A stretch of DNA of 30,055 nt from a virus: positions 1-30,055 of IMG/VR virus record IMGVR_UViG_3300032220_000468; one strand, given 5' to 3'. Both the position numbers and the translations under genes were made by a program. Below are positions 3,492-30,055 of the stretch, piece after piece; the stretch's first letter is position 1, and every line of letters starts with the position of its first letter. The notes below the pieces were generated by a model. That model did not search any database and had not been told where the DNA came from. It saw nothing but the letters and a program-made list of their open reading frames with translations.

Positions 3492-3854
3492 ATGAATGAA
3501 TTAGAACCTGTAGAAAAGAAAATATGCCGTTCTTGTGGCGTTGAGAAGCAAACTAAAAGATTTACCAAATTAGCAACAGGTAATAGAGCTGGTGTTTGTA
3601 ATTTGTGTAGGTCATTAGGTAATACCATTAAAGATAAAATTACTAAAAAGGTAAAGCCTAAAAATAATCCATTACAACTTGGCTTCGTTCAATTAAAGGA
3701 TTATGAGAATGCTTACAGATTTCTTGAGAATATAGGATACTCGTTGAAAGAAGATTTACATATTCAATTCTGTAAGAAATACGGACTTACTCCAAATAGT
3801 CCCAAACAAACATTCTTAAATCATTATTCACAAAAAGATTTAGGTCTTGTTTGA
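3492..3854 (+). CDS. Small zinc-finger protein
   Basis: This 120-residue protein has CRSC at residues 12-15 and CNLC at 36-39, a CxxC-N20-CxxC treble-clef or zinc-ribbon pattern with a conserved-looking aromatic (KRFTK) and Gly between the pairs. Such modules are common in phage HNH-related or transcription-associated proteins. No HNH residues follow here. The C-terminal half is lysine-rich and then helical (LQLGFVQLKDYENAYRFL). It could bind DNA, but the target is unknown. It has its own promoter just upstream and ends right where the next promoter (3851) begins. Confidence 0.65.
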   Translation: MNELEPVEKKICRSCGVEKQTKRFTKLATGNRAGVCNLCRSLGNTIKDKITKKVKPKNNPLQLGFVQLKDYENAYRFLENIGYSLKEDLHIQFCKKYGLTPNSPKQTFLNHYSQKDLGLV

Positions 3855-3880
3855 CTTTTCAATTTTTTTTTATATTTATT
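3851..3880 (+). promoter_or_regulatory. Promoter for the structured leader region
   Basis: TTGACTTTT at 3851-3859 overlaps the stop of the zinc-finger gene. With a 19-base spacer it is followed by TATTTATT at 3873-3880. The TTGACTTTT part is shared with promoters at 4259, 5525, 5842 and, on the reverse strand, 5478. The predicted start near 3886 falls at the base of a perfect 9-bp hairpin. Confidence 0.6.
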
Positions 3881-3883
3881 GTT

Positions 3884-4178
3884 ATAGAATAATGGGCGGA
3901 AACATAACACTTGCGTTATTCTATTACGACTTACAAGGGGATAATTTACATTAAAAAGTCAGCACCAGCACAAAGGAAGAAGGTGTATAGTAAATAGGTT
4001 GAAGGGTCAATCTAAAGTTGCTTCCAAGTTATAGTTTCCCTTGATACTATAATACTCCCAGTCAAGTAAGTAATGACTACGAGTGTGTTATTCTGTAGTG
4101 AAAACTATGGGATAAGCACTCACATATCAACCCGTAAGTAAATAACCTTCGGTAATAAGAATTAGATTAGCAACTGGT
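3884..4178 (+). ncRNA. Candidate structured RNA / leader region
   Basis: About 295 bases hold no gene beyond one 20-codon ORF (3892-3954). Complementary segments seen by eye: 3884-3892 with 3916-3924 (9 bp, perfect); 3928-3932 with 3956-3960 (GACTT/AAGTC); 3997-4002 with 4127-4132 (GGTTGA/TCAACC). The last pair encloses 4029-4035 with 4046-4052 (7 bp), 4060-4064 with 4074-4078 (5 bp), and a long hairpin at 4081-4121 (about 16 pairs including GU, with one bulge). Together these suggest a multibranched RNA just downstream of a promoter. No match to tRNA, tmRNA, hammerhead or a group I core was recognised. It could be a regulatory leader, a free ncRNA or an origin. Base pairing was judged by eye only. 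Confidence 0.45.
3892..3954 (+). CDS. Possible 20-residue leader peptide
   Basis: An ATG at 3892 opens a 20-codon frame (MGGNITLALFYYDLQGDNLH) ending in TAA at 3952. Its start codon lies at the stem-loop boundary of the 3884-3924 hairpin, so the hairpin could hide or present it. No ribosome-binding sequence is seen. It may be a leader peptide or just a chance ORF. Confidence 0.25.
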   Translation: MGGNITLALFYYDLQGDNLH

Positions 4179-4262
4179 ATGGAATTAGATATATTAGCAT
4201 TAGAAATATTTATAGGTTATTTTATAGCAGTTTTATTAGTAAGAAAAAAAAGAGATAATTGA
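4179..4262 (+). CDS. Putative 27-residue single-span membrane peptide
   Basis: ATG at 4179 to TGA at 4260-4262 encodes 27 residues: acidic MELD, a hydrophobic run of about 18 residues (ILALEIFIGYFIAVLLV), then a strongly basic tail RKKRDN. This is a well-formed one-pass inner-membrane peptide with a positive-inside C-terminus. It directly follows the structured region, and its stop overlaps the next promoter (TTG at 4259). Small phage membrane peptides of this shape act as holin-like, antiholin or host-modulating factors; the function here is unknown. Confidence 0.45.
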   Translation: MELDILALEIFIGYFIAVLLVRKKRDN

Positions 4263-4289
4263 CTTTTTAATATTTTTTTGATATTTATT
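4259..4289 (+). promoter_or_regulatory. Promoter with the GATATTTATTAGTA element, for the gene at 4293
   Basis: TTGACTTTTT starts at 4259. TATTTATT at 4282-4289 follows TTG after 20 bases, and the ATG is at 4293. Both the early TTGACTTTT box and the start-codon element GATATTTATTAGTA (4280-4293) are present. If the -7 box is right, the transcript would be leaderless or almost so. Confidence 0.55.
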
Positions 4290-4292
4290 AGT

Positions 4293-4517
4293 ATGAAACA
4301 GAAAACACATAAGGTTATTGATTGTAAGTTGATTAAAGTTGAAAAATTATTTAACCAAACAAAACCAAATAAGTTTTTTTATAACATTACTCTTGAAGAA
4401 ATGGATGAACCATTACTACTTGAAACAGAACAAGAAATACAGCCAGGCCTAATAGGTCAAAAGATAAAATACAAACTCAACGAAGAGAATGAAGTAAGTG
4501 AGTTTGAGTTGATTTAA
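4293..4517 (+). CDS. Hypothetical 74-residue protein
   Basis: I chose the ATG at 4293, directly behind the GATATTTATTAGTA element, over a TTG 15 bases upstream that lies within the promoter. The product is 74 residues with an alternating beta-like pattern (HKVIDCKLIKVEKLF, FFYNITLEEM, GQKIKYKLNEENEVSEFEL), suggesting a small all-beta fold such as an OB-like or SH3-like barrel. No family was recognised. A strong terminator follows seven bases after the stop, so it ends a transcription unit. Confidence 0.6.
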   Translation: MKQKTHKVIDCKLIKVEKLFNQTKPNKFFYNITLEEMDEPLLLETEQEIQPGLIGQKIKYKLNEENEVSEFELI

Positions 4518-4523
4518 CATATT

Positions 4524-4598
4524 GAGAGGGGGTTTTTTACAATTCTAATATTGTTCCCATTATTCTATTATTCTATTATTATCCCCCTCTCTTTTTTT
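4524..4598 (+). terminator. Rho-independent terminator with a long loop
   Basis: GAGAGGGGG (4524-4532) pairs perfectly with CCCCCTCTC (4583-4591), followed at once by seven T residues (4592-4598). The loop is 50 bases and AT-only apart from a few bases, with a repeated ATTCTATT unit. The stem and U-tract are textbook; the long loop is not. The next gene starts at 4607, nine bases after the T-tract. Confidence 0.75.
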
Positions 4599-4606
4599 AT
4601 TCTAAT

Positions 4607-4969
4607 ATGGAAAGACAATCGTTATTACCATTACTTGAGAGTGTTGTAAGAGATAATCCTACATATAAGTTTCCAATAGAAACTATCAATAAGGAACTTG
4701 TATCCTTATTCCTGAACCCATTAGAGTTTGATTACTTTACTATACAGAGTTATAGAAAGTTAAAGAGAGAGTTTGGTGATACACTTGCTCACATATTCCT
4801 TTCAACATTAGAATTAAAGTTGAACCTAAAGGAGAGAGACATTTATACTCTATCAACACAGGAGTATCAGGCAGAGATAGAAAACTTCATAACTACTATG
4901 GAAAATCTATACATTACCAAAGTCAATAAGAAGTCAAGTGATGGTGAGATGATGTCGGCTATGGCTTAA
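4607..4969 (+). CDS. Hypothetical helical protein, 120 residues
   Basis: No family was recognised. The protein looks largely alpha-helical, with KFPIETINKELVSLFLN, IQSYRKLKREFGDTLAHIFL and LSTQEYQAEIENFITTMEN segments and no Cys. It starts at an ATG nine bases beyond the terminator T-tract, and I see no clear promoter of its own. It may depend on readthrough or on a start within the terminator loop region. Its last 11 bases overlap the 3' end of the reverse-strand gene at 4959-5159, a convergent overlap. Confidence 0.55.
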   Translation: MERQSLLPLLESVVRDNPTYKFPIETINKELVSLFLNPLEFDYFTIQSYRKLKREFGDTLAHIFLSTLELKLNLKERDIYTLSTQEYQAEIENFITTMENLYITKVNKKSSDGEMMSAMA

Positions 4970-5200: not shown

Positions 5201-5428
5201 TTATGAACCTATAATCCACACTTCATCAGCATTCCAATTTATTTTTTTAGTTGCTTCAACAACATAGTCAGTATAGTCGTGTAATGGACTATCAACTTTA
5301 TTTTTCTTTAATACCTTGTGAAGATACTTTGTTCTCTCTTCGTCATTCTCAAACTCAAATTGTGTCTTGAAACACATTACTACTGGGTAGTCAATAAAAA
5401 TCTCTGTGTAAGTTTTGTTCTTTTTCAT
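5201..5428 (-). CDS. Hypothetical reverse-strand protein, 75 residues
   Basis: The product is 75 residues: a beta-like start (KKNKTYTEIFIDYPVVMCF), a charged helix (FENDEERTKYLHKVLKKNK), then DYTDYVVEATKKINWNADEVWIIG. The alternating beta-alpha-beta pattern suggests a small ferredoxin-like or anti-CRISPR/regulator-like fold, but no family was recognised. The ATG is at 5428 behind its own promoter (5449-5478). It is transcribed divergently from the gene at 5571, and its stop lies within the upstream region of the second reverse gene. Confidence 0.62.
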   Translation of the reverse strand: MKKNKTYTEIFIDYPVVMCFKTQFEFENDEERTKYLHKVLKKNKVDSPLHDYTDYVVEATKKINWNADEVWIIGS

Positions 5429-5448
5429 ATCTTTTTGTTTTTCTATTA

Positions 5449-5478
5449 CAAATGTAAGTCAAACTATACAAAAGTCAA
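5449..5478 (-). promoter_or_regulatory. Promoter of the reverse-strand gene at 5201-5428, with the TTGACTTTTGTA box
   Basis: On the minus strand, TTG (5478-5476), 19 bases, then TACATTTG (5456-5449) fits the host consensus exactly. The upstream part reads TTGACTTTTGTA (5478-5467), the same 12 bases found on the plus strand at 5525 and 5842. The two promoters here are divergent, 47 bases apart. Confidence 0.7.
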
Positions 5479-5520
5479 TACCCACAACAAAAAAAAATAA
5501 AAAAAAATATTTTACCTGTA

Positions 5521-5554
5521 GGACTTGACTTTTGTAGATGTTGTGTTATATTTT
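5521..5554 (+). promoter_or_regulatory. Promoter for the gene at 5571, with the TTGACTTTTGTA box
   Basis: TTG (5525-5527), 19 bases, TATATTTT (5547-5554). The 16 bases GGACTTGACTTTTGTA (5521-5536) recur exactly at 5838-5853. The ATG at 5571 comes after a 16-base stretch containing AAGGA, one of few Shine-Dalgarno-like sequences in the window. Confidence 0.68.
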
Positions 5555-5570
5555 AGAAAAAGGAACTAAT

Positions 5571-5828
5571 ATGAAATTGAAACAATATGTAAAACTTTGG
5601 GGTAAATGTCTAATACCTTCTACAAAAAAAGATGACGGACACTACAATATGGGTATTATCTGTGAGCCTGATAATTCTTCTGTTGTAGATGGAAATGGTT
5701 TGACCTATGAAATGATGGGTAGAAGAATAAGAGTTTATGATTGTGAAAATGGAACATACGGCAATTACAGATTGGATAGTATCAGGAAGTTTAACAAAGA
5801 ATATATTTTAGAAAAAAATAAAAAATAA
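5571..5828 (+). CDS. Hypothetical 85-residue protein
   Basis: The start at 5571 is chosen because an earlier in-frame ATG (5538) lies between the two promoter boxes. The product begins MKLKQYVKLWGKCL and has a repeated Gly/Tyr beta pattern (GLTYEMMGRRIRVYDCENGTYGNYRLDS split over two strands), suggesting a small beta-barrel. It has three Cys at about residues 13, 31 and 58. No family was recognised. It is the first gene of a run of small forward genes, and the next one has a nearly identical promoter. Confidence 0.62.
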   Translation: MKLKQYVKLWGKCLIPSTKKDDGHYNMGIICEPDNSSVVDGNGLTYEMMGRRIRVYDCENGTYGNYRLDSIRKFNKEYILEKNKK

Positions 5829-5837
5829 TTTAGTGTG

Positions 5838-5871
5838 GGACTTGACTTTTGTATATCTTGTGTTATAATTA
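5838..5871 (+). promoter_or_regulatory. Promoter for the gene run starting at 5905, with the TTGACTTTTGTA box
   Basis: TTG (5842-5844), 19 bases, TATAATTA (5864-5871). It shares GGACTTGACTTTTGTA with the copy at 5521, and TTGTGTTATA as the later part. Read as a classical promoter it is TTGACT-16-TATAAT, a perfect -10. The transcript would have a leader of about 30 bases containing GAAGGAAC. Confidence 0.7.
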
Positions 5872-5904
5872 GTATAGAAGGAACAAAAAACACCTTATAG
5901 AAAA

Positions 5905-6153
5905 ATGGAAAATCAAACTTACACAATCGGTCAAACATTCAATCCTGGTAAAAACAACAGAAACGAATATCTAACATCTGTAAAACTTACAGACATCCAA
6001 CCTTGTAAATACGGAGGAAACAAATATAAGATGACTTGGTATAGCAAACACGAGATGAACGACGGAACATTCAAGAAATCTCAACGCTCTTGTTGGATGA
6101 ACGGAGCATCAACAATCACTATGTATCTTGAAGAAGGATGGATTGCTCTATAA
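5905..6153 (+). CDS. Hypothetical 82-residue protein
   Basis: No family was recognised. The sequence alternates polar beta segments (QTYTIGQTFNPG, EYLTSVKLTDIQPC, GGNKYKMTWYSKHEM, SQRSCWMNGASTITMYLEEGW), consistent with a compact beta-sheet protein. It is the first gene after the strong promoter at 5838-5871 and is followed by further small genes with gaps of 8-21 bases, so it heads a likely early operon. Confidence 0.6.
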   Translation: MENQTYTIGQTFNPGKNNRNEYLTSVKLTDIQPCKYGGNKYKMTWYSKHEMNDGTFKKSQRSCWMNGASTITMYLEEGWIAL

Positions 6154-6163
6154 AAATAATAAT

Positions 6164-6352
6164 ATGAAAAACTTACTAATCAGCGGAAATACTCTACAAG
6201 AGTGGGACATAGAAGAAGTCCTAACCAATAAGGTTAAATCAAAAGACCAAACAATCTGTGATATGATACAGAGTGATTGGGACAATACCATATCAAGATG
6301 TGGTATGACTTATCTTGAGATAGAACAATTCAACAACACATATAATCAATAA
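6164..6352 (+). CDS. Hypothetical 62-residue protein
   Basis: I use ATG 6164, ten bases after the previous stop, instead of an in-frame ATG at 6128 that overlaps the previous gene. The product begins MKNLLISGNTLQEWDIEEVL, with a small acidic helical region and CGMTYLEIEQFNNTYNQ at the end. The final segment resembles a short dimerisation or recognition helix. No family was recognised. Confidence 0.55.
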   Translation: MKNLLISGNTLQEWDIEEVLTNKVKSKDQTICDMIQSDWDNTISRCGMTYLEIEQFNNTYNQ

Positions 6353-6373
6353 ACAAAATAAAAAATAGAACAA

Positions 6374-6622
6374 ATGGAAACAAGAGAATTAGAACAAAAG
6401 AAAGACGCACTAACAAGAGCGTTATGGGAAGCGTATAACACATTAAATGAGTTATACAATCCACTACAAATCAATTCAATCAAGAAAAAGATTGATGATG
6501 AAATGAATAACTATGGTTATGAAGACCTTGAATATGAAGACAGGGCTTGGAGTAATAGAGTTATAGAAGCAATCAAAGATGTTGATAAAAAAAGAGAGGA
6601 ACTATTAAAATTAGCATTCTAA
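6374..6622 (+). CDS. Hypothetical coiled-coil protein, 82 residues
   Basis: The product is 82 residues, highly charged, and almost wholly helical: ELEQKKDALTRALWEAYNTL at the N-terminus and NRVIEAIKDVDKKREELLKL at the C-terminus, joined by an acidic YGYEDLEYEDRAW stretch. It probably forms a helical hairpin. Function unknown. It sits in the same direction and spacing as its neighbours. Confidence 0.55.
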   Translation: METRELEQKKDALTRALWEAYNTLNELYNPLQINSIKKKIDDEMNNYGYEDLEYEDRAWSNRVIEAIKDVDKKREELLKLAF

Positions 6623-6631
6623 TATAAACTT

Positions 6632-6793
6632 ATGGGAGCACTAAAACAATACCATAACGACTATCTATCAGCAGAGGACTTTGACCTTATGTTTGATGAT
6701 GAATACGAACTATGGTTAGAGAACCATAAAGTAGAAAAAGAAGAATACGAACAAGCCATCGGTGATGGAATAAATCAAAATTATTGTAATTAA
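6632..6793 (+). CDS. Hypothetical acidic 53-residue protein
   Basis: ATG 6632 to TAA 6791-6793 gives 53 residues, very acidic (FDLMFDDEYELWLENHKVEK), ending QAIGDGINQNYCN. It lies in a perfectly spaced slot between the coiled-coil gene and the HNH gene, which starts one base after this stop. The acidic helical character recalls small phage proteins that mimic DNA or inhibit host enzymes, but there is no direct evidence. Confidence 0.5.
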   Translation: MGALKQYHNDYLSAEDFDLMFDDEYELWLENHKVEKEEYEQAIGDGINQNYCN

Positions 6794-6794
6794 A

Positions 6795-7328
6795 ATGAAT
6801 AACGAACAAGAAATATGGAAACAAATACCGATGTATCCAACATACGCAGCATCCAATCTCGGTAGGATAAAGAACATCAAGAAGGATAAGATAATGACCC
6901 AATCACCAAATGATGTGAATAGAGATTATCAAAAGGTATGTATCTCTTACAGGAACAAACCTTACACAAAGAAAGTATCCCGTCTTGTATGGTCGGCATT
7001 CAACGATTGTGAGTGTGAGCTTACCATCAATCATATTGACGGAGACCCTCTAAACAACAACATAAATAATCTTGAATGTATAAGTAATCAGGAGAATTGC
7101 GCGAAGAAGAATATTTATAGGAAGAGGATAAACAAATATAACCTTGATGATGATATGCGTAGGGACATACTAATATCTTACCTGACTAAAGAAAAGTCAG
7201 TATGGGTATTGGCACACGAATACAAAATCCCAAGCAATTATCTCTATACAACTTTTAAGAGACAAAGTTGGAACCACTTATGTTGGAACAACGATACAAT
7301 CAATACAGAGAACTCGCAAGAAAAATAA
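6795..7328 (+). CDS. HNH homing-type endonuclease with NUMOD4 domain
   Basis: This 177-residue protein has a NUMOD4-type start (EIWKQIPMYPTYAASNLGRI, residues about 6-25), then VSRLVWSAF (61-69), then the HNH core NHIDGDPLNNNINNLECIS (79-97). The His-80, the Asn cluster and the downstream NQENC fit the beta-beta-alpha-metal fold that nicks or cuts DNA. A C-terminal HTH-like segment (VWVLAHEYKIPSNYLYTTFK) would give sequence recognition. Such genes are usually free-standing selfish elements, or help packaging or gene conversion in phages. It starts one base after the previous stop, and its 3' end overlaps the sigma-like gene by 49 bases. Confidence 0.85.
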   Translation: MNNEQEIWKQIPMYPTYAASNLGRIKNIKKDKIMTQSPNDVNRDYQKVCISYRNKPYTKKVSRLVWSAFNDCECELTINHIDGDPLNNNINNLECISNQENCAKKNIYRKRINKYNLDDDMRRDILISYLTKEKSVWVLAHEYKIPSNYLYTTFKRQSWNHLCWNNDTINTENSQEK

Positions 7329-8281: not shown

Positions 8282-8437
8282 GGGTAAGAAAAACTGATTG
8301 GTTGATTTTTCATTTTTAATAATTGGGGGAGTTGTAATCTTTTTACTTCTTCCCCATATTTATTTATAGGGAATTGATATTATTTTTAATTTATGGAACA
8401 TTATTTAATACCCTAACTAATAAAACACAAATGACTT
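8282..8437 (+). other. Intergenic region between early and packaging modules
   Basis: These 156 bases have no credible gene; the only ATG frame is seven codons long. They hold a strong hairpin (8324-8356) followed by an ATATTTATTTATAG stretch, which resembles the start-codon element but is not adjacent to a start. The packaging genes then start at 8438 behind an A-rich leader. This is probably a transcription boundary. Confidence 0.5.
8324..8356 (+). terminator. Hairpin, probable terminator or attenuator
   Basis: TGGGGGAG (8324-8331) pairs with CTTCCCCA (8349-8356 as CTTCCCCA) over eight pairs including one GU. Within the loop GTAA (8334-8337) can pair with TTAC (8343-8346). The following sequence (TATTTATTTATAG) is AT-rich but has no clean U-run, so it may be a weak terminator or a control point before the packaging genes. 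Confidence 0.5.
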
Positions 8438-8611
8438 ATGGCAAAGAGTAGCAAAAGAGGTGGGGTTAAAGCTCACAACAAAAGAATTAAAAAGAGAAAC
8501 GAGATATTCACACATATAGAATACCTCAAGAAAAAGATTATTGAAGAAGCAAAAGAACGATATATTCAAGAACAACAAAATAAAGACCAAATTAAAATAC
8601 AAATAAAATGA
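8438..8611 (+). CDS. Small basic protein preceding the small terminase
   Basis: This 57-residue protein begins MAKSSKRGGVKAHNKRIKKR, a strongly basic disordered arm, followed by a charged helix (EYLKKKIIEEAKERYIQEQQ). It probably binds nucleic acid and may assist packaging or regulation. Its TGA overlaps the ATG of the small terminase (ATGA at 8608-8611), a sign of translational coupling and a good argument that it is real. Confidence 0.65.
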   Translation: MAKSSKRGGVKAHNKRIKKRNEIFTHIEYLKKKIIEEAKERYIQEQQNKDQIKIQIK

Positions 8612-29427: not shown

Positions 29428-30055
29428 AAAAAATGTTGTAAATAATTTAATAGCGACTGTGTCTATGAATAAGACGCTGCCTAACCCTTATTATCTTTTT
29501 TCATTCCAACACATAGCATCAAAGGAGAGAATAAGTTTTATCCCTCAAGTTATTACAAGTAATGTTAGATACGATAAGTTTAGATTTGTTGAAGCTCCAA
29601 CGACTAATTTATCTGCGACACCACCTGAAGTTTATTTTGAGTATTTGGGTCAAATGTATTATTCCATCTATGAGCAGGTGTCTCCTACCAATACAAATAT
29701 AGATTTAGCCTACAACAAATTAGAGAGTGGTAGAGCTTGGTTGATTGTTGGTGATGATAATACCCAAGAATGTTTCTTTGAGCCTTACATTTCTAATGAT
29801 GAGGATTTCGCACAAGTTATTTATGTAAGTGAAGAAGAGGAAGCTTGCCAACAACCACTTACACCTAATATCACACCGACTAACACTCCAACTCCAAGTA
29901 TCACACCAACTAATACAGCCACTCCTACAAGCACTCCAACGAACACACCTACCAATACTGCTTCACCAACTATCACACCAACACAAACACAGACGAACAC
30001 ACCGACTATGACGAAAACTCCTACGAACACGCCAACCCCTTCATCTACACCACCA
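29414..30055 (+). CDS. N-terminal part of the junction-spanning Thr-Pro adhesin
   Basis: ATG 29414 begins MLIIRKNVVNNLIATVSMNK and runs open to the window end; the frame matches base 1 of the window (codon phase agrees after subtracting 29,932). The N-terminal domain of about 150 residues (LPNPYYLFSFQHIASKERIS, then YFEYLGQMYYSIYEQVSPTN, then LESGRAWLIVGDD) resembles a small beta-sandwich found at the start of structural proteins in Bacteroidota phages. A Thr-Pro tract begins near 29863 and continues at 1-128. With the part at 1-819 the full protein is about 445 residues. Confidence 0.78.
   Translation, partial: MLIIRKNVVNNLIATVSMNKTLPNPYYLFSFQHIASKERISFIPQVITSNVRYDKFRFVEAPTTNLSATPPEVYFEYLGQMYYSIYEQVSPTNTNIDLAYNKLESGRAWLIVGDDNTQECFFEPYISNDEDFAQVIYVSEEEEACQQPLTPNITPTNTPTPSITPTNTATPTSTPTNTPTNTASPTITPTQTQTNTPTMTKTPTNTPTPSSTPP
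29933..30055. repeat. Terminal direct repeat, right copy
   Basis: Identical to 1-123. When the window is circularised these 123 bases should be counted once. Confidence 0.93.

Follow-up and report, generated by a model that had tools for sequence, protein, structure and literature searches.

What is encoded by positions 3884 to 4178 of this phage genome, a stretch for which a first-pass annotation, made from the letters of the DNA, had proposed a conserved RNA fold in place of a gene? We addressed this question in the window, i.e., the whole stretch of 30,055 bases that was analyzed. The window contains portal, terminase, and tape-measure genes, and it carries a 123-base direct terminal repeat (positions 1-123 and 29933-30055), so the window is probably complete, as the map of a circularly permuted phage or as a circular assembly. 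Named phages, searched in 50,697 records, had no DNA similarity to positions 3500-4700, and close relatives of the terminase were found only among uncultivated viral contigs, with distant ones elsewhere. Assignment of a host through those terminase relatives was uninformative, as the matches were only 26-31% identical and came from mixed phyla. The sole hint regarding the host, which we infer tentatively, is a Bacteroidota-like promoter.

Other parts of the window have features of their own. Several proteins contain long Thr-Pro-Asn-rich (TPTNTPT) repeats, which are similar to one another and run across the contig ends (1-820, 16900-17800, 18800-19500, 27100-27600, and 29800-30055). A homing-type HNH endonuclease with a NUMOD4 motif is encoded at 6795-7328, and imperfect direct copies (85%) surround promoter-like CTTGACTTTTGT motifs at 5494-5553 and 5812-5870, a repeat that is also repeated in relatives.

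A conserved fold with two pseudoknots

The proposal that the region lacks a credible gene was borne out. Open reading frames of at least 20 amino acids within 3884-4178 were limited to unremarkable ones of 22-35 amino acids, and coding in the RNA region is ruled out by the indels and helix replacements seen among relatives. Folding was better than chance when compared with shuffled controls, both for 3884-4178 (z = -2.33) and for 3990-4140 (z = -4.22; 0 of 200 shuffles equal). Furthermore, a conserved fold received strong support from covariation. In an alignment of 13 sequences (A5), 26 of the 34 pairs in the core spanning helices P2 to P6 had changed on both sides, with 98% of cells paired, and an alignment of 10 sequences (A3) had two-sided changes at 23/34 pairs; the fold read by hand agrees with both counts. 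The A5 covariation score was 0.468 versus 0.150 in shuffles (reached by 0/500), and when the partner was moved by one column, pairing fell to 36-37%. A5 was fitted to P3-P6 and not to P2 or the pseudoknot helix PK, yet the latter two pair in 100% of cells. The same alignment contains 18 G-U cells and 0 A-C cells, which indicates that selection has acted on the plus-strand RNA and not on DNA or the opposite strand. Judged by these sequence comparisons, a structured phage RNA at approximately 3884-4138 on the plus strand is real.

The RNA, all of whose elements lie on the plus strand, begins with a terminal hairpin, P1 (3884-3894/3914-3924), with a conserved loop (GGCGG..ACACTTG) on a stem that takes several distinct sequences among relatives. 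Compensatory changes were found at 7/8 of its scored pairs, a count made on an imperfect alignment. The hairpin is thus present and covarying at the predicted start, as had been suggested, but it comprises 11 bp and not 9. Next, P2 pairs GACTT (3928-3932) with AAGTC (3956-3960), with compensatory changes at four of five pairs, and encloses a loop that contains the conserved ACaAGGGGATA along with the 5' strand of P3. The latter helix forms a pseudoknot with P2 by joining ATTTAC (3944-3949) to GTAAAT (3990-3995); all six pairs are compensatory, all cells are paired (100%), and A5 contains eight different sequences for it. Between the P3 strands lies the hairpin P4 (CACC, 3963-3966; GGTG, 3982-3985) with the loop AGCACAAAGGAAGAA and variants CACC/GGTG, CATC/GATG, and GACT/AGTC (3/4 pairs compensatory). 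Its loop enters the second pseudoknot, PK, in which GGAAG (3975-3979) pairs with CTTCC (4021-4025); here too the variants are compensatory (GGAAG/CTTCC, GAGAG/CTCTC, and GAAAG/CTTTC, with GGGAG/TTCCC in L235).

Local hairpins make up most of the remainder. P5 (AGGTTGA/TCAATCT, 3996-4013) and P6 (GTTATAG/CTATAAT, 4028-4053, loop TTTCCCTTGATA) have compensatory changes at 5/7 and 6/7 pairs, respectively. P7 (AGTCA/TGACT, 4060-4078) is tentative, coming from the minimum free energy (MFE) fold; it is variable in sequence and, by eye, is swapped for other hairpins in L117 and L156. The predicted long hairpin of about 16 pairs is present as P8 (4081-4121), which has 17 pairs in the fold; according to a hand alignment, which is less rigorous, four relatives (L113, L117, L043, and L156) carry wholly different yet paired stems. 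A conserved 3' segment, ACTCAC plus CAACCCGTAAG (4117-4138; alignments A1 and A2), marks roughly where the conserved RNA ends. Complementarity is suggestive of pairing between the GGGG and either CCTCCC or AACCCG near the RNA 3' end, while for a candidate pairing of the P1 loop with J6-8 (ACTTG/CAAGT) no covariation was seen by eye.

The overall architecture differs from the one first proposed, which was purely nested and closed by a six-pair stem (3997-4002/4127-4132). Although this stem retains 6/6 or 5/6 pairs in the window and near relatives, it is without compensatory change and is broken in L043, L117, and L156, where 2/6, 3/6, and 4/6 pairs are left, respectively. In addition, it competes for the same bases with P5, the covarying local alternative. 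We therefore rejected the nested MFE fold with its long-range closing stem, which lacks covariation, in favor of the fold containing two pseudoknots.

The promoters placed on both sides of the region were recovered as promoter-like sites. The upstream one (3850-3881, plus strand), which consists of TTTGACTTTT, a spacer, and TATATTTATTG, is conserved ahead of the RNA in almost every relative and resembles what we take to be the Bacteroidota type (-33 TTTG/-7 TAnnTTTG). The second, of the same type by motif match, is located at 4259-4289 on the plus strand, before the open reading frame at 4311-4517. Matches to TTGAYTTTT-N-TATTTATT number two in the 30-kb window versus 0.01 expected, the one before the RNA lying at 3851-3880. 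In 13 relatives, a -7-like TATTTAT box ends 3-9 nt before P1, and this near-fixed spacing suggests that P1 is at, or a few bases from, the expected 5' end. At the other end, a hairpin or inverted repeat with a T-run, with no open reading frame directly there, was seen by eye 3' of the RNA in L117/L151, L043, and L156; these hairpins are not scored by the terminator scanner, which requires three G-C pairs and short loops. The window has no evident terminator between the RNA and the peptide gene that follows, and the same holds for several relatives, so that cotranscription of RNA and peptide is likely there.

Distribution among viral records

The RNA is found in about 20 viral records. An exact 21-base seed recovered five, and searches with hidden Markov models, patterns, and covariance models brought the number to 19 besides the window, including one that is 99.98% identical to it. 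The weakest accepted members had core matches of 80-93 bits. Collapsed to distinct sequences, the records number about a dozen (window/L003, L004, L112, L118, L120, L113, L043, L117, L156, L169, L171, L175, and L235). Six other candidates (L155, L238, and the weak covariance model matches L023, L026, L095, and L132) were at chance level or apparently coding and were not counted, and contigs of bacterial genomes had no match to the pattern of the RNA motif.

Two of the carriers are distant phages, L235, whose portal is 38% identical, and L156, whose portal is 28% identical and whose genome has another layout. In L156, the RNA is on the minus strand, in a different gene order and at another position, upstream of the packaging genes; in L152, it is displaced by approximately 3 kb in the downstream direction. 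Conversely, whole-record searches did not find the RNA in relatives whose portal and terminase genes are closely related and whose records span 12-32 kb, five of them at 27-32 kb, although such records are possibly incomplete. The sole match to the RNA model among them, in a 27.9-kb record, was at chance level (14.9 bits).

Comparison with the Betaproteobacteria-1 RNA

Whether the RNA is new, as had been thought, depends on how strictly a family is defined. It is outside all Rfam thresholds: the window had no match at or below threshold, and none of the 13 relatives had one at threshold. At the same time, it resembles a remote relative of RF02932, the Betaproteobacteria-1 RNA, which is typed in Rfam as "Gene; sRNA" and is named by no paper in the literature that we searched. 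The resemblance came to light in L156, whose match to RF02932 scored 28.9 bits, with an E value of 6e-4 against the whole of Rfam and of 7e-6 against this family alone. L156 aligned with both the P1 (GGnCGG..CAGC-type loop) and the P2 (CUGuGGGaaA loop) of RF02932. Because a chance match of the same region to rli43 (22.4 bits; cutoff, 100) had an E value of 0.0018, values of 1e-3 are no proof by themselves, and we sought true RF02932 RNAs for comparison. BLAST with the RF02932 consensus gave nothing convincing, and the proteobacterial replicons tried before Cupriavidus metallidurans had no RF02932 above the cutoff. A megaplasmid of that species yielded two, at 94.9 and 80.7 bits.

The two kinds of RNA share the order P1, P2a, P3a, P2b, P4, P3b, PK. 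In both, the P1 loop has the form G-N-CGG..(C/U)(A/U)G and is closed by G-C, and the P2 loop presents GGGG-A beside P3a, with CUGuGGG..A as the Rfam form. A P3 equivalent, ggugc in the P2 loop with gcacc after P4, can be read from the RF02932 consensus as well as from either Cupriavidus copy, even though it is unannotated in the Rfam model. The equivalent of PK is annotated there (cuAGc/GgCUgg, joining the P4 loop and the segment that follows P3b), and the phage helix GGAAG/CTTCC, with its compensatory variants, occupies the same place. There are also differences. The phage RNA has the additional hairpin P5 between P3b and PK, its P4 loop reads AGCACAAAG..AGAA versus GGCGAAG in RF02932, and its carriers are AT-rich phages as opposed to betaproteobacterial replicons.

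In the reverse direction, a covariance model of nine phage RNAs from which L156 had been excluded (R2) found L156 at 62.9 bits. When R2 was applied to the 3.1-kb Cupriavidus loci, the best match in each was the RF02932 RNA, with P1, P2, and P4 in register, but the scores were low (12.1 and 11.5 bits; E, 0.26 and 0.36); P1 and P2 of L275 and L277 were aligned in register, without mispairs in L275. The Cupriavidus RNAs were not found by the R1 model, nor did R2 find anything in a scan of the whole megaplasmid under strict filters. A double-pseudoknot descriptor fits nine tested RNAs from both groups and had four other matches in 552 kb on both strands; since it was written after both RNAs had been seen, it gauges how rare the arrangement is and does not count as an independent discovery.

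Common ancestry of the phage RNA and RF02932 is likely. The phage RNA is not a strict member of the family, as the window had no match and L156 reached 28.9 bits of a gathering cutoff of 49.4. Our best reading is that it represents a phage-borne branch or variant of a Betaproteobacteria-1-like class, for which it supplies about a dozen distinct new sequences that can be used in fixing the RF02932 fold, including the two pseudoknots.

In L280, an RF02932 RNA near 8353 lies approximately 1.3 kb from the Gabija gene GajA (5225-7021; E, 1e-249), and in L279, the distance between an RF02932 RNA near 8500 and a weak candidate for PDC-S02 (5963-7123; E, 3e-6) is approximately 1.4 kb. That both Cupriavidus copies are near defense-like genes is a weak hint of a role in conflict, two loci being an anecdote.

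Possible roles and a swap-prone locus

Of the roles that had been suggested for the region, namely a free noncoding RNA, a leader, and an origin, the first is favored. Specifically, we lean toward a discrete, trans-acting phage noncoding RNA of approximately 255-270 nt, belonging to the Betaproteobacteria-1-like class and perhaps having a role in phage-host conflict. Transcription would start at P1, just 3' of the RNA's own promoter, and yield a compact body held by two pseudoknots (P2/P3 and P4 loop/PK) and followed by hairpins P5, P6, and P8, the conserved entity being the plus-strand RNA. Residing in a swap-prone cassette in only some close relatives, it would be an accessory factor that presumably acts in trans. 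We would guess that it binds a protein or ribonucleoprotein (RNP) belonging either to the host or to a competing element and that the most likely setting is conflict with the host, in the form of counterdefense or host takeover. This guess comes from the patchy, accessory distribution, the compact fold, in which many loop bases are conserved, and the proximity of the Cupriavidus RNAs to defense-like genes. A more ambitious idea, which we regard as rather doubtful, is that the phage and Betaproteobacteria-1 RNAs are two branches of one mobile-element double-pseudoknot class that moves between phages and defense-rich islands, with a protein of host or phage as its direct target in immunity or counterimmunity.

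It is improbable that the RNA serves instead as a cis-acting leader (riboswitch or attenuator) for the 27-residue membrane-type peptide encoded at 4179-4262 on the plus strand, outside the RNA, and for downstream genes. A short membrane-type open reading frame does lie directly 3' in the window, L003, L004, L112, L118, L120, L169/L171, and L175, with the window having no terminator in between. Yet the consistent linkage to a peptide gene that is expected of a cis-regulatory leader is not seen among the relatives: at least five genomes (L093, L099, L101, L108, and L137) have the peptide but lack the RNA, the RNA without an adjacent peptide occurs in L043, L151/L152, and L156, and L113 has a 106-amino-acid open reading frame between the two. 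This double dissociation makes a leader role unlikely, and the next gene, at 4311, has its own promoter. Considerably less probable still is a replication origin, a primer RNA, or a packaging RNA like the pRNA of phi29, even if the locus is intergenic and structured and the RNA is upstream of packaging genes in L156. The phi29 pRNA, likewise phage encoded and structured, is required for packaging, and an RNA of that kind would be kept wherever the terminase is kept. The RNA described here, however, is missing from close relatives that share the gene order as well as the structural and terminase genes, an absence that speaks against any obligatory origin or packaging role; its position and orientation vary between lineages, and its pairing is RNA-like and strand specific.

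Two further explanations concern how a free RNA would work. One is base pairing with host mRNAs as a phage small RNA, which would agree with a free-standing small transcript and with the "Gene; sRNA" type of RF02932 but is unlikely given that most of the conserved bases are in helices or pseudoknots, leaving no evident long single-stranded seed, and that a globular pseudoknotted fold is better suited to binding a protein or RNP. The other is an undescribed self-processing ribozyme with an active site made from the conserved unpaired P1 loop, GGGGAUA, AGCACAAAG, and AAAGUUG. As in known small ribozymes, numerous unpaired positions are invariant and the core is pseudoknotted, but the sequence bears no sign of a site for cleavage or splicing, none of the known ribozyme families gave a match, and protein binding explains the conserved loops equally well, so we consider this improbable, too. 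Covariance models of described ribozymes, riboswitches, and tmRNA had no match, and neither tRNA nor tmRNA was found.

Among other structured RNAs, GOLLD and ROOL often occur in phages. Along with OLE, these belong to the ornate large structured bacterial RNAs that were found by covariation and whose role is unresolved (PMC12286853). All three are far larger than the phage RNA, and the Rfam searches here detected none of the three. ToxI is a short tandem-repeat pseudoknot RNA. Its phage counterpart, the pseudo-ToxI of phiTE, sets a precedent for a phage RNA that escapes defense by RNA mimicry (PMC3475682). The present RNA, unlike ToxI, is without repeats, and a target of mimicry is only hypothetical in this case. 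If a conflict role is true, the RNA would join the few structured phage RNAs known to have such a role. The small genome of the phage makes the RNA simple to delete.

The locus itself is a swap site. Between a zinc-ribbon open reading frame (3492-3854) and the one starting at 4311 (3854-4311 in the window), syntenic intervals in relatives hold RNAs or different small open reading frames over approximately 0.3-1 kb. Given that the RNA alternates there with at least one more RNA that is clearly structured, the locus may be a source of phage effector RNAs. One such RNA, RNA-B, is approximately 120 nt long and takes the same place in relatives without the first RNA (L127:8937-9056, L137:442-561, L097:3303-3419, L106:9025-9139, L128:4644-4759, L103:5469-5581, L125:4872-4985, and L122:9125-9235); it was found in none of the loci carrying the first RNA. 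Its 5' ACCACxxxx pairs with xxxxGTGGT in the loop of a terminator hairpin (GGAGAAC/GTTCTCC plus a T-run), with compensatory changes that are obvious by eye. Adjoining RNA-B is a third element, RNA-C, of approximately 190 nt, which is almost invariant across genomes with differing flanks (L097:3422-3609, L103:5585-5772, L105:4723-4910, L106:9140-9327, L108:6091-6273, and L125:4987-5170) and in which a deletion of 1 base in L108 speaks against a coding sequence.
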